From a virus: 45,337 nt of DNA. This document shows positions 25,737-30,686 of the stretch, one piece after another. The stretch is from the IMG/VR virus record IMGVR_UViG_3300049855_000196, positions 1-45,337 of that record; one strand, written 5' to 3'. Both the position numbers and the translations under genes were made by a program. The notes under the pieces were generated by a model. It was not told the origin of the DNA. It was given only the letters and a program-made list of their open reading frames with translations, and searched no databases. The number at the start of each line of letters is the position of its first letter. Positions within the stretch are counted from its first letter, which is position 1.

Positions 25737-25892
25737 TCACCATTTCATTTTATAAAAATATTTCATATAAATTTTTTCTGCAATCAAAACTAAGAGGAAT
25801 AAAATTCCGACGATCGCAAGAATCCCAAGGGCGACTAAAAATTGCGCGAGCATAGCGCCCAGTTTTAATTTTATTCCGTCCATTATATTCAT
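25737..25892 (-). CDS. 51-residue membrane protein
   Basis: A short frame starts in an ATGA overlap with the methyltransferase stop, with GAGGGG about 8 nt upstream. It encodes a polar start (MDGIKLKLGAMLAQ), a strong membrane helix FLVALGILAIVGILFLLVLIA and a basic, aromatic end (EKIYMKYFYKMKW). It is translationally coupled to the methyltransferase. Function unknown. It has the size and topology of phage early proteins that disturb the host membrane, which is only a possibility. Confidence 0.58.
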   Translation of the reverse strand: MNIMDGIKLKLGAMLAQFLVALGILAIVGILFLLVLIAEKIYMKYFYKMKW

Positions 25893-26923
25893 AGCTTTTT
25901 CCCCTCCAAAATCATAATTCTATCGGCGATCATTTCTACGCACTGGGGAACTACTGCGTTCCCTAATTGTTTTATTCTTTGTCGTCGTTCACTTTCGACG
26001 AATTGATTTCCGTCCACCGCGGGGGAAATCCCATCATACTCTCGACGAATTCCGGATTCAGTCGTCCACCAATTACCGAAACGAGCGGCGGTTTTTGTCC
26101 TCCACCAGGATGAAACGTCCTCGGCGGAAGAGGTTGGCCAGAATCGCGACAAGTAGGCGTCGGGAGTGACAAAGCTACACTCCGAAGATTGCCCTTTTTT
26201 AGATCGTGTTCGTAGCTCTTTGATCCGATCGGCCCGGCCCCCTTCGCGTCCGACACTTGCGGCGTCGGTAAATTTTTCTGATATCTCGCGGCGTAGGTTA
26301 CTAGCGTTCTTTGCGATTGACTCTTCGCCTTGGGATCGTAAATCTTTGTCGGCCCCCGCGATCCGTCGTTCGCGTCCGGAGTCGGAAGATTCTCTTCGCC
26401 ACGCGATAATGAAGATTCGCTCCCGTAAATGGATTGCCCCGACGGAGCGAGCGGATATAATAGACCATTCAGCATTATACCCCATTTGATCGAGATCTTT
26501 GAGGACTCGGACAAGTCCGATATTGAGTAAATTTTTGACGTTTTCGATAAGAGCGTATCTTGGTTTAATTTCTCCGATGAGTCGGGCGAATTCGCCCCAT
26601 AATCCGGATCGTGTTCTATTACCTTGTTCATCTTCAAAGCCCCTTTTTATTCCCGCGATCGATATATCTTGGCAAGGAAATCCGCCGGAAATTAAATCTA
26701 TTTTTGTTTTTATGCTTTTTATTCCGTCGGTTAAAACGCCGTCAAAATAATGTAAATGGTTTACGTCGTCGAAGGCGTGAACTTTGGGCCAATGTTTATT
26801 TAAAACTTTTCGGGCGTGTTCGTCGAATTCACAAAACGCCGTCGCCTCGAATCCGCCGGAGCGTTCAAGTCCTAATTCGATTCCGCCTATTCCTGAAAAT
26901 AAAGACAAAGTTTTAAGTTTCAT
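25889..26923 (-). CDS. C5 cytosine-specific DNA methyltransferase
   Basis: The 344-residue protein has C5-methyltransferase motifs in order: motif I FSGIGGIELG (9-18), motif IV GGFPCQDIS with catalytic Cys84, motif VI ENVKNLL (127-133), motif VIII RERIFIIA (167-174) and motif X QLGNAVVPQ (319-327). It transfers methyl groups from S-adenosylmethionine to cytosine. No restriction partner is nearby, so protection of phage DNA against host restriction is the likely role. Residues ~178-318, the target recognition region, are overprinted by another conserved-looking frame. The start overlaps the polymerase stop by one base. Confidence 0.9.
   Translation of the reverse strand: MKLKTLSLFSGIGGIELGLERSGGFEATAFCEFDEHARKVLNKHWPKVHAFDDVNHLHYFDGVLTDGIKSIKTKIDLISGGFPCQDISIAGIKRGFEDEQGNRTRSGLWGEFARLIGEIKPRYALIENVKNLLNIGLVRVLKDLDQMGYNAEWSIISARSVGAIHLRERIFIIAWRRESSDSGRERRIAGADKDLRSQGEESIAKNASNLRREISEKFTDAASVGREGGRADRIKELRTRSKKGQSSECSFVTPDAYLSRFWPTSSAEDVSSWWRTKTAARFGNWWTTESGIRREYDGISPAVDGNQFVESERRQRIKQLGNAVVPQCVEMIADRIMILEGKKL
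25972..26637 (-). CDS. Second reading frame overprinting the methyltransferase recognition region
   Basis: A +1-frame open for 221 codons lies within the methyltransferase gene. Its last ~145 residues do not look like random shadow. Three LPTP units occur at regular spacing (NLPTPDAND, NLPTPQVSD, SLPTPTCRD), followed by GGRLNPEFVESMMGFPPRWTEI. These phrases are well known at the C terminus of many phage cytosine methylases. The same DNA in the main frame encodes the DGIS-type segment before motif X. So either an alternative methyltransferase C terminus is made by frameshift, or the second frame is a relic. The start at 26637 is arbitrary; coding support begins near 26415. Confidence 0.5.
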   Translation of the reverse strand: MKMNKVIEHDPDYGANSPDSSEKLNQDTLLSKTSKIYSISDLSESSKISIKWGIMLNGLLYPLAPSGQSIYGSESSLSRGEENLPTPDANDGSRGPTKIYDPKAKSQSQRTLVTYAARYQKNLPTPQVSDAKGAGPIGSKSYEHDLKKGNLRSVALSLPTPTCRDSGQPLPPRTFHPGGGQKPPLVSVIGGRLNPEFVESMMGFPPRWTEINSSKVNDDKE

Positions 26924-28881
26924 TATTTTTTAAACCTTTCACCTTCGCCGCCTTCGACGTCGATAGGAAATCCCTCGGCCCAAGCCGGAACTTGTCTCAT
27001 TAAATTTTCATATTCTTTTAAACTTTTCCCGATATCGCACTCACTAACTAATTCATCGTGAACGGTAAGAATCGTAGGGTATCCCGCCGCCTCGACTCTA
27101 AACATTGCTTCGACCATTACGTCGCGACTAATCGCCTGGACTATATTTTCCGTAATTTTTCCGCCATAAGTCCGCTCGGTCGTCCATTGTTTAGTTTTGG
27201 AATCGACCGCCATATATTGCAATTGCTCTTTTAATCCGAACGGCGATTCCGCTAGTTCAATTTTTGGATACGCATACGCTATTTTCCGGCCGGAAGGAAG
27301 TTTACAGTATAAAAAATTCCCGACTTTTTTAAATTGAACACGGCGACAAGGAACCACTAAACCGGGGAATTTTACCGCTTTGATCGCGCACGCTTCGACT
27401 TCATACCAAAAAGTCACGACCTCTTTAAAACGCGTTCTATACGCCATTTTAGCGCGATTCGCTAGATCTTCCGATACTTCCATTCCGTAACCGCCGCAAG
27501 TGACGATAAACTTCGGCGCGCCCATTCCGTAACCAAATCCTAAGATCGCTTGTTTTCCTAATTGACGTTCGAAACTTCCCTTTAAGATTTTATCCGGGGA
27601 TGTATTATAAATCGTCGCGGCCATTTCTTCATAAGCTTTTCCGCCGCCGTCTCTATAAAGCGCAAGGCCCTCTTTGCATCCAGTAAGCCAAAATAAACCG
27701 CGCGCCTCGATCGAAGCAAAATCGCAAGTCATAATCTTTTTACCCGGCCCCGCTTTAATCATTCCGCGGATCATGGAGCTAATTACATCTAAAACGTCGG
27801 GATATTCTTTTTTAAATTCTTGATAATTATTTTTATTTAAAAGTTTAAAAGCTTTGTCGATATCTTTTAGTTCGCCGCGTGGAAGGTTTTGCGGTTGAAA
27901 ACCTTTTCCCGTCCAACGTCCCGTCGATGCGCCGTGATACATTAAGGAACCATAAACGCGACCGTCCACGACTAAAAGTTCTAGCGCCTTAAGTTTTTTC
28001 GTGGAAGATTTTGAACAAGCTTGACGAATTTCTAAAACTCTTTTTGCAAGCGGTTGAATCTTAGGAAAATTTATATTCTCTTCGACGACGGCGGCGGTCA
28101 ACGTCTCTAAGAATAAACCGTGAGACGCTAAAAATTCTTTTATTTTTTCCGTTTGACCATGCGTTTCGACTCTTCCGCCCGTGATCTGTTTTAGCTCTAA
28201 GGTCAATTCTTCGATATACCTTTCGACAAAACTTTGCGCGATATAAACCGACTTCATATCGATGGGAAGTCCGCGATCGTTTATTTTCATATCAAGTAAA
28301 AAAACCTCGCGTTCGTTTTCTGATAATGGCGGAATGGTTTTTCCGATCTCAACTTCGACAAGGGTATCCGTTTTGCAATACGCCGCAAGTTTTAGTAATT
28401 CTTGAATTTGTTCACGCCAAACGCTCGGATCTTCCATAGTCACGCGCTTGCGTAATTTCGTCATTTTAAGCATGAGCGATTTTCCGCCCATATCTTTTTG
28501 AACTGGAAGTCTTAAAGCGTTTGCAACGCCGTCTAATGATCTAGGAAGCGCAAGGGCCGAAGCGTTCGCGGCCGAGCAAAAACATTGGAAGTCGAAAATA
28601 ATTGGCGCGCCGAAATCTCGCACCATGATATTATTCCAAATCAATCGCTCAAAATTTATATTGTGGGACTCGATATCTTCCAGGTTTTGAATTGCATCGT
28701 ATAAAGGTTTTAAAATTTCTAAACTCGAAATCGCCGGGATCAAAGGCGACCACGTTGTCGCCTTGCCGTTTATCACATAAACGAGGCAAAGAATTTCCGT
28801 CGTCACATCCTTAGCGTAACGATAAACGCCTTCCTTTTTAAGGCCGCATCCGGATCGTGTTTCGAAATCTATACAAATCAT
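26923..28881 (-). CDS. Family A DNA polymerase with 3'-5' exonuclease domain
   Basis: The 652-residue protein has an N-terminal proofreading domain (DFETRSG at 5-11, SHNINFE near 72, YCKTD at 168-172). The polymerase domain has TGRWTG (320-325), motif A DFASIEARG (387-395), motif B RQLGKQAILGFGYG (439-452) and motif C HDE (608-610). It is the phage-type family A enzyme that copies the genome. It follows DUF2800 and DUF2815 genes, a standard phage replication set. An intrinsic terminator lies just upstream, between it and the DUF2815 gene, so its level is probably kept lower. There is no 5'-3' exonuclease domain, as usual for phage enzymes. Confidence 0.92.
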   Translation of the reverse strand: MICIDFETRSGCGLKKEGVYRYAKDVTTEILCLVYVINGKATTWSPLIPAISSLEILKPLYDAIQNLEDIESHNINFERLIWNNIMVRDFGAPIIFDFQCFCSAANASALALPRSLDGVANALRLPVQKDMGGKSLMLKMTKLRKRVTMEDPSVWREQIQELLKLAAYCKTDTLVEVEIGKTIPPLSENEREVFLLDMKINDRGLPIDMKSVYIAQSFVERYIEELTLELKQITGGRVETHGQTEKIKEFLASHGLFLETLTAAVVEENINFPKIQPLAKRVLEIRQACSKSSTKKLKALELLVVDGRVYGSLMYHGASTGRWTGKGFQPQNLPRGELKDIDKAFKLLNKNNYQEFKKEYPDVLDVISSMIRGMIKAGPGKKIMTCDFASIEARGLFWLTGCKEGLALYRDGGGKAYEEMAATIYNTSPDKILKGSFERQLGKQAILGFGYGMGAPKFIVTCGGYGMEVSEDLANRAKMAYRTRFKEVVTFWYEVEACAIKAVKFPGLVVPCRRVQFKKVGNFLYCKLPSGRKIAYAYPKIELAESPFGLKEQLQYMAVDSKTKQWTTERTYGGKITENIVQAISRDVMVEAMFRVEAAGYPTILTVHDELVSECDIGKSLKEYENLMRQVPAWAEGFPIDVEGGEGERFKK

Positions 28882-28936: not shown

Positions 28937-29524
28937 TTAAAAATCAGAATCCGACGAACTCGCGTAATTAGGAAGATTATTTAGATCTTCCGTTACTTCG
29001 ACCTCATCGAAAACAGATTGCGCCGAAGCACGTCCGCCTAATTTTTCACCGTCTTTTAATTTCTGGATATTTTGCAATCCAAACGCAACGCCTTTATTTC
29101 CCATATGGTCAAAGGCGTAGACGTTCACTTGCGCGCGTGCGAAGCATCCTGAATAAAAAGCATCCGGATCAATGATATCATTTTTTTGTTGATCGATTAG
29201 TCCCGGCGCGAATTTACTCGACGCCGAAACGAAAACCGTATCCGCAAAGCCTTGATACTCATCCGCTTTTTCATTCCCATCGCGAAACGGATTTTTCCAA
29301 TTCTTCGGCCATTTTTCTTTGGCCCCGAATTTTGCCGTCATCGCTTGCGCTACTAATTCTCTCATCTTTTTGTATTCGGGAGTCGCTTGCGCTTCTTTGT
29401 CGAATAACATACAGATAGAATACTTCGCTTCTTTTCCGGCCTCAAACGCCTTCGGTTTAAAGACTTGCGTAAACGCCGCTCTAAATTTTGGTGTTAAAAC
29501 CGCTTCTAATTTTTGTTCCGCCAT
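28937..29524 (-). CDS. DUF2815 protein, probable ssDNA-binding replication protein
   Basis: I start this 195-residue protein at 29524, where an AGGGGG ribosome binding site precedes MAEQKLEAVLTP; an upstream start would run through the neighbour. The pattern KYSICMLFDKEAQ, KNPFRDGNEKADEYQGF, FYSGCFARAQVNVYAFDHMGNKGVAFGLQNIQKLKDGEKLGG is that of DUF2815, thought to be a single-stranded DNA-binding protein of OB fold. A flexible acidic tail ends in aromatic DSDF, like SSB tails that dock partner proteins. It is followed by a strong terminator. Confidence 0.85.
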   Translation of the reverse strand: MAEQKLEAVLTPKFRAAFTQVFKPKAFEAGKEAKYSICMLFDKEAQATPEYKKMRELVAQAMTAKFGAKEKWPKNWKNPFRDGNEKADEYQGFADTVFVSASSKFAPGLIDQQKNDIIDPDAFYSGCFARAQVNVYAFDHMGNKGVAFGLQNIQKLKDGEKLGGRASAQSVFDEVEVTEDLNNLPNYASSSDSDF

Positions 29525-29537
29525 AAATCCCCCTAAA

Positions 29538-30686
29538 TTAATTAAATATATCCTTTGGCAGGTCAACCGCTTTACGTTTATCGGACTCGGGAGCGATAGT
29601 AAGATCGCCCGCGATTTCGACAAATAAAGACGATGCAATTTTTGCGAATTCTTTTTTACCTACAAGTTTTTCCATTTCCGGAACGGATTTAAAATCGTAA
29701 ATCTTATCGCCCAAAGATCTTTTAAAAAATGCTTCGGCCTTTTGATCGTCATACCATTTCCGTTTTGAATTCCCGCGAACAACTTTCACGCCCGGAATAC
29801 TTTTCCCCGATAAAACTTCGAATTTGATTCTCTCTTCACACGCATCTAAAAAAGTTTCGATGAGTTTTTTCTTCGAATAAATTTCGGCGACCTCTTCAAT
29901 GGCCAATAACTCCGGCAAGGCGTTTGGACGCCCTTCGCTAAAAGCTTTAACCGCTCTTTGGTTCGCTTGATTTTTAAGCGCCGGGCACATTGCCGAAGCG
30001 GCGCAAAATCTACACGATTCGGGCGAAGGTATAAGGGGCGCGTCGTCGATCTCGGTCAACTTCGCGCCTATTTTAAAGAGCGCCTTCCACTCCATAAGTT
30101 CGTCAAAATTTATTGCCCACGTTCGCAAAATCCCGTCGGGATGCGGCGCACGCGGTTGAAAAATACTCATCTTAATAGTATCGAAACGATCGAAGGTTAA
30201 AAAATCTTCATTGAACGCCGCGCCCAGTGCGTAAAAAACTAACTGGGGATTTTCAAACGCTTCGACCGCAATTCCCGCCCCATATTTTAAATCGAAAACG
30301 TGTAGCGTTTTCTTTTCATGGGATACGATACAAGCGTCATTGGTTCCAAACATTGCCGGATGAATGGTCGGGAGTGAAAATCTTTTTTCGACTAACAATT
30401 CGCCTTTAAGTTCTTTTTGCGTCTCTAAAACTTCACTAACATAAGCCTGGGCGTATGCGATCATTTTAGAATCGGCTTTGTGTTCGCCCGAAGTGGTTTT
30501 AATCCACTGGCCGGGCTTGACCTCTTCGCCTTTAAAAAGCATTTCCGCCACGCTATGGGCCGTAGTTCCTTCCGCCGCATACTTCGAGTCGGGCGACGGC
30601 GGACACTTACTAATAAGCCTTACGGAACCCGGACAAGATAACCAACGCTTTGCGCTTGAAGCGCCTAATTTACTATGTGCGCTCAT
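29538..30686 (-). CDS. DUF2800 protein, PD-(D/E)XK nuclease of Cas4/RecB type
   Basis: The 382-residue protein starts SKLGASSAKRWLSCPGSVRLI, with TTAHSVAEML near residue 40. A FGTNDACIV and VFDLKYGAG pair gives the nuclease core D-x(n)-D-x-K around residues 115-140. A cysteine set, ESCRFCAASAMCPAL (with Cys48-like partners near the N terminus), could bind an Fe-S cluster as in Cas4/AddB nucleases. DUF2800 proteins accompany DUF2815 and family A polymerases in phage replication modules. It probably processes DNA ends in recombination-dependent replication. It lies 13 nt before the DUF2815 gene. Confidence 0.83.
   Translation of the reverse strand: MSAHSKLGASSAKRWLSCPGSVRLISKCPPSPDSKYAAEGTTAHSVAEMLFKGEEVKPGQWIKTTSGEHKADSKMIAYAQAYVSEVLETQKELKGELLVEKRFSLPTIHPAMFGTNDACIVSHEKKTLHVFDLKYGAGIAVEAFENPQLVFYALGAAFNEDFLTFDRFDTIKMSIFQPRAPHPDGILRTWAINFDELMEWKALFKIGAKLTEIDDAPLIPSPESCRFCAASAMCPALKNQANQRAVKAFSEGRPNALPELLAIEEVAEIYSKKKLIETFLDACEERIKFEVLSGKSIPGVKVVRGNSKRKWYDDQKAEAFFKRSLGDKIYDFKSVPEMEKLVGKKEFAKIASSLFVEIAGDLTIAPESDKRKAVDLPKDIFN

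Follow-up and report, generated by a model that had tools for sequence, protein, structure and literature searches.

Lee et al. are said to have described, in 1995, a C5-cytosine DNA methyltransferase, M.EcoHK31I (YGGCCR), whose β polypeptide is encoded inside the gene for α, in another reading frame. Both polypeptides are needed for this enzyme, the large one carrying motifs I–VIII and X together with the predicted recognition domain, and the small one carrying motif IX (PMC3404938). M.AquI is also a C5 methyltransferase made of two polypeptides, in which motif X lies in the small subunit together with motif IX (PMC3404938). The locus described here is probably a further case, of a neglected kind, of the two-part enzyme already known from M.EcoHK31I, and we would put the probability that it encodes a nested, two-subunit C5 methyltransferase of that type at roughly 0.85. 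It lies in a phage contig (the window, 45,337 bases in all) with matches to terminase, tape measure, DNA polymerase, primase and helicase.

As in M.EcoHK31I, motifs I–VIII and X lie in a large ORF of the window (α) and a motif IX-like segment in a smaller one (β). The small-subunit gene, which in M.EcoHK31I is reportedly nested in another frame, is here a nested +1 ORF marked by stop depletion and synonymous constraint. The likeness is one of motif layout and gene arrangement, and it stops at the recognition domain, since the constrained, putative recognition modules of the window type lie in the β frame rather than in the large subunit. With M.AquI the locus shares a natural split of the C5 methyltransferase past motif VIII into two subunits, but here motif X stays in α and β is wholly nested. 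The same geometry as in the window occurs in the Paenibacillus larvae phages Leyra (gp61/gp62) and Lily (gp62/gp63), where both ORFs are annotated (the nested one of Lily as “g62 internal gene”) and the β profile matches in +1; no discussion of the nesting was found in a paper on 48 P. larvae phages (PMC6070908).

The catalytic gene α (25889–26923, minus strand, 344 aa) matches PF00145 (2.8e-47, residues 4–336), phrog_363 of PHROGs (7.3e-68) and the dcm model TIGR00675 (1e-39), assignments with which its fold model agrees. FSGIGG is present, and motifs I, IV (PCQ), VI (ENV), VIII (RxR) and X occur together in this one ORF, which makes it a C5-cytosine DNA methyltransferase catalytic subunit. 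The main-frame motifs do run up to motif X, QLGNAVVPQ (25943–25969, minus), as the original prediction had it. GxPCQ, ENV, RxR, GN and P are invariant across 82 α homologues, the motif X residues being G321, N322 and P326; this alignment and the 108-homologue alignment used for β both exclude six rows, those drawn from annotated phage records. A DNA polymerase ORF (26923–28881, minus) directly precedes α, its stop overlapping the α start as TAATG. Elsewhere in the window, ORFs at 28937–29638 and 29538–30686 (both minus) overlap by about 100 bases, and the second of these is an exonuclease (phrog_69).

Fully nested in α is the +1-frame ORF β (25972–26631, minus), which runs for 219 codons from an ATG at 26631 to a stop at 25972, in a frame already open from 26646, and spans the codons of the α catalytic motifs VI–VIII. 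A Shine-Dalgarno-like AAGGGG (26640–26645, minus) lies 8 nt upstream of the ATG and would form a duplex of -7.0 kcal/mol with the anti-Shine-Dalgarno sequence. PHROGs places the two chains in different families, β in phrog_1008, “DNA methyltransferase” (6.7e-20, or 9.8e-20 counted from the ATG), which matches all 108 β homologues tested. The Pfam search returned no model for the β family, and no relative of β was found in the PDB. The three LPTP units predicted for the +1 frame are all present, LPTPDANDG (26377–26388), LPTPQVSDAKG (26260–26271) and LPTPTCRD (26155–26166), as is the motif IX-like segment GGRLNPEFVESMMGFPPRWTEI (26005–26070; all minus). The dual-frame span first proposed, 25972–26415, is real and too short, for the nested ORF begins at the ATG at 26631. 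In the motif IX-like segment, P193, E197, G201 and P203 are invariant and N192 nearly so among 108 homologues; motif X is absent from the β ORF. A multispecific phage C5 methyltransferase has several recognition modules with different targets; in the present family, by a crude pattern count, 109 of 113 homologues carry one to six TP units per β, at a median spacing of 36 aa.

The window copy differs from most relatives at its N-terminus, where about 30 residues (EEQLTLF..EDSPAK) are missing. Most relatives begin β ahead of motif IV, whereas in the window it starts some 18 codons past that motif. Over motif IV itself (26632–26690, minus), the +1 frame of the window is interrupted by stops. Because of these stops and the missing residues, this particular copy could be weakened.

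A survey of loci from IMG/VR, GTDB genomes and annotated phages proves the nested arrangement to be very widespread and mostly unannotated. The same two frames coincide in some 250 relatives, both phage and bacterial, and in nearly all loci the β profile matches in the +1 frame of an uninterrupted α ORF. When the search was begun from β, with phrog_1008 against 598 bacterial genomes of two phyla, matches turned up in 4 of the 299 genomes of one phylum and in 17 of the 299 of the other. These amounted to 35 loci (several of which share one gene), and apart from two weak ones every locus lies in +1 relative to an α. Genome records with loci come from phyla that include Pseudomonadota, Bacillota, Actinomycetota, Chloroflexota, Spirochaetota and Verrucomicrobiota, and a plasmid search returned one distant match. 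Among the phage records fetched, β is without annotation in SEN4, Ivi, Marilyn and ABMM1, to name some examples.

Selection acts on both frames. In 43 independent pairs of relatives (mean α identity 63%), divergence at the four-fold sites of α that fall within the overlap was 0.351 ahead of motif VIII and 0.211 past it, as against 0.616 outside the overlap, figures that describe the lineages of relatives, the closest of which in the tree set is 56% identical to the window over the catalytic part. Divergence fell below the outside level in 40 of the 43 pairs before motif VIII and in 42 of 43 past it. Past motif VIII, β was less diverged than α in all 13 pairs of at least 65% identity (0.265 vs 0.388), and the middle of α is therefore the less constrained partner among closer pairs. 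In more distant pairs the two were similar (0.582 for β, 0.599 for α, with β less diverged in 13 of 30), and there the α-guided alignment may misplace β. Nesting, conservation and two-frame selection are thus family-wide. The stop depletion and synonymous-site constraint that the original prediction had anticipated among homologues both hold, and the pattern it had named as speaking against it, a +1 frame interrupted by stops and free of purifying selection, is the opposite of what was found: nearly every homologue keeps the frame open, and purifying selection acts on it.

Structure models and single-chain relatives suggest how the two chains might divide the work. In the AlphaFold model of α, pLDDT exceeds 90 for most of residues 1–180 and the motif X helix is present, whereas values of 40–60 prevail over most of residues 181–300, and of 39–55 over most of the region between catalytic domain and motif X helix, where the recognition domain and motif IX would be expected, so the middle of α is predicted to be unstructured. 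Foldseek aligns the model with M.HhaI and M.HaeIII over the catalytic region only, some 180 columns. Modelled alone, β reaches a pLDDT of 60.5 and a pTM of 0.28, and for what would be half a domain such a poor fold is perhaps no surprise. With this poor model and the lack of a PDB relative, the recognition role of β is argued from single-chain relatives. These are Hamulus gp68 and Akhila gp60 of Mycobacterium phages, in which the same LPTP units and an MGWPAGW end occur between motifs VIII and X; there, however, five LPTP units, motif IX and motif X all lie in the catalytic frame past motif VIII, on one chain. DNA recognition is most likely the task of the subunit encoded by β.

The assignment of motif IX to β follows from these single-chain relatives and from others in which the segment has switched frames. 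The motif IX segment stands just ahead of motif X in the α frame in the loci L027, L309, L071 and L075, and in L071 and L075 that segment alone is back in the α frame, the LPTP units being still in +1. More broadly, L071, L075, L227, L250 and L027 all have the motif IX segment in the α frame and the LPTP units wholly or partly in +1. In a quick, unrooted tree of the catalytic part, frame-switched and single-chain relatives occupy separate places among nested members, and to judge from this scatter the motif IX segment can seemingly function whichever chain carries it. In another locus, L095, an α N-terminus shares one frame with LPTP-like units and MGYPMNWT, and no motif X was found; it is possibly a degenerate or frameshifted copy.

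Could the +1 peptide look family-like merely because conservation of α restricts the other frame? Some of the resemblance does arise in this way, as EDSPAKTYQ of the relatives' β N-terminus is GGFPCQDLS read in +1. The control was a codon shuffle, in which codons are permuted among positions of the same amino acid so that the α protein and its codon usage are unchanged; averages against the β profile are still 14 bits for the shuffled window and as high as 50 for shuffled relatives. Since part of the β score in relatives is forced by α, the shuffle served as the measure there as well. With a profile built without the window sequence, the real +1 frame of the window scored 105.8 bits, while its 1,000 shuffles averaged 14.0 (sd 7.9) and reached 44 at most, a gap so wide that the β sequence is not forced by α. 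None of 20,000 window shuffles left the 219-codon span free of stops (mean 9.45), the fraction in which the stretch between the ATG and motif VIII was open rounds to 0.0000 in the same number of shuffles, and the +2 frame across the span contains 14 stops. Among relatives, the real β score exceeded all 40 shuffles in 243 of 254 loci (z>5 in 232), and of 265 loci, 85% had a significantly open +1 frame (p<=0.01), as against 0.4% for +2. Together with the constraint at synonymous sites, these results leave forced resemblance a negligible chance of being the explanation, and it is discarded for the window as for most relatives, loci of the Streptococcus MM1 type excepted (z 0.3–1.9 for the β score; outside the LPTP β family). 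Overprinting is confirmed, beyond chance, with strong support from stop depletion, family-specific +1 sequence and synonymous-site constraint, as the original prediction had proposed.

That prediction had also offered a programmed frameshift, which would give one enzyme two alternative C-termini; in the form considered here, ribosomes would shift to +1 near motif VIII and the second C-terminus would carry the LPTP/MGFP segment. The contiguity of the frames is in keeping with such a fusion, as are the single-chain relatives that carry an LPTP/MGFP segment past motif VIII in one frame, but a frameshift would use the second frame only past the shift site, and β stays open and under constraint long before motif VIII is reached, by the shuffles of the window and the four-fold sites of relatives alike. 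Moreover, a Shine-Dalgarno sequence with a start at -7 kcal/mol or better is found in 32% of loci against 9% of shuffles, and this enrichment, with the early constraint, favours an internal start. The fused product would also be without motif X, which the window β ORF lacks. A frameshift is thus very unlikely, and this part of the prediction finds no support; the two frames look like complementary subunits and not like alternative versions. Just as improbable is that the β frame is a remnant of an ancestral recognition region and that α works alone with a new one. Motif IX has indeed switched frames in L071, L075, L027 and L309, and the window β is without its usual N-terminus. Against this stand the purifying selection on the β frame across the family, stronger than that on α past motif VIII in closer pairs, and the predicted disorder of the middle of α. 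The family test would be compatible with a recent loss in the window copy, though its β is still free of stops.

The MM1-type loci, namely Streptococcus phage MM1 orf14 (L019, 1632–2057), L249, L261, L265, L269 and L268, have a nested +1 ORF of another kind. Their methyltransferase is complete, with its own motif IX, LTPRECWRLQGFPDW, and motif X, and their α seems self-sufficient. The +1 ORF, of 140–200 aa and in several cases ending in ..CSLSDILEE.V.ERYFLS, matches phrog_16143 and is annotated in MM1 as “C5 methyltransferase beta subunit”. Its openness was matched in 0 of 300 shuffles for most of these loci (p 0.010 for L268), and it is constrained at four-fold sites (0.23 vs 0.67 for L019/L261).

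On the two-subunit reading, a single stretch of DNA would yield both parts of a C5-cytosine DNA methyltransferase. The frame 0 product, α, would be the catalytic subunit, contributing motifs I–VIII and the motif X helix, and β would be translated in the +1 frame from the internal ATG, with its own Shine-Dalgarno sequence. The LPTP units of β would serve as target-recognition modules and, with the motif IX-like segment, would complete the usual two-domain fold once the two chains assembled, so that α would methylate sequences chosen by β. The middle segment of α would mainly be a passenger on the β code, and a plausible role for the enzyme in the phage is to shield its genome from host restriction. 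For a broader version of this reading the odds appear evenly balanced: a widespread overprinted pair would have its recognition modules encoded in +1 relative to the catalytic frame, with the variable region of α mostly a passenger, and recognition units and motif IX would have moved between frames several times, so that each LPTP unit may confer a specificity that can be exchanged and that acts in trans.

If the two-subunit reading is true, the same bases code for two subunits of one enzyme in phages and several bacterial phyla, and the family would join the few well-supported examples of long functional overprints in prokaryotes. Moreover, where a C5 methyltransferase is annotated as one gene, its target-setting subunit may in many cases have been overlooked, and the annotated gene, if expressed with altered codons, would then yield an inactive enzyme.
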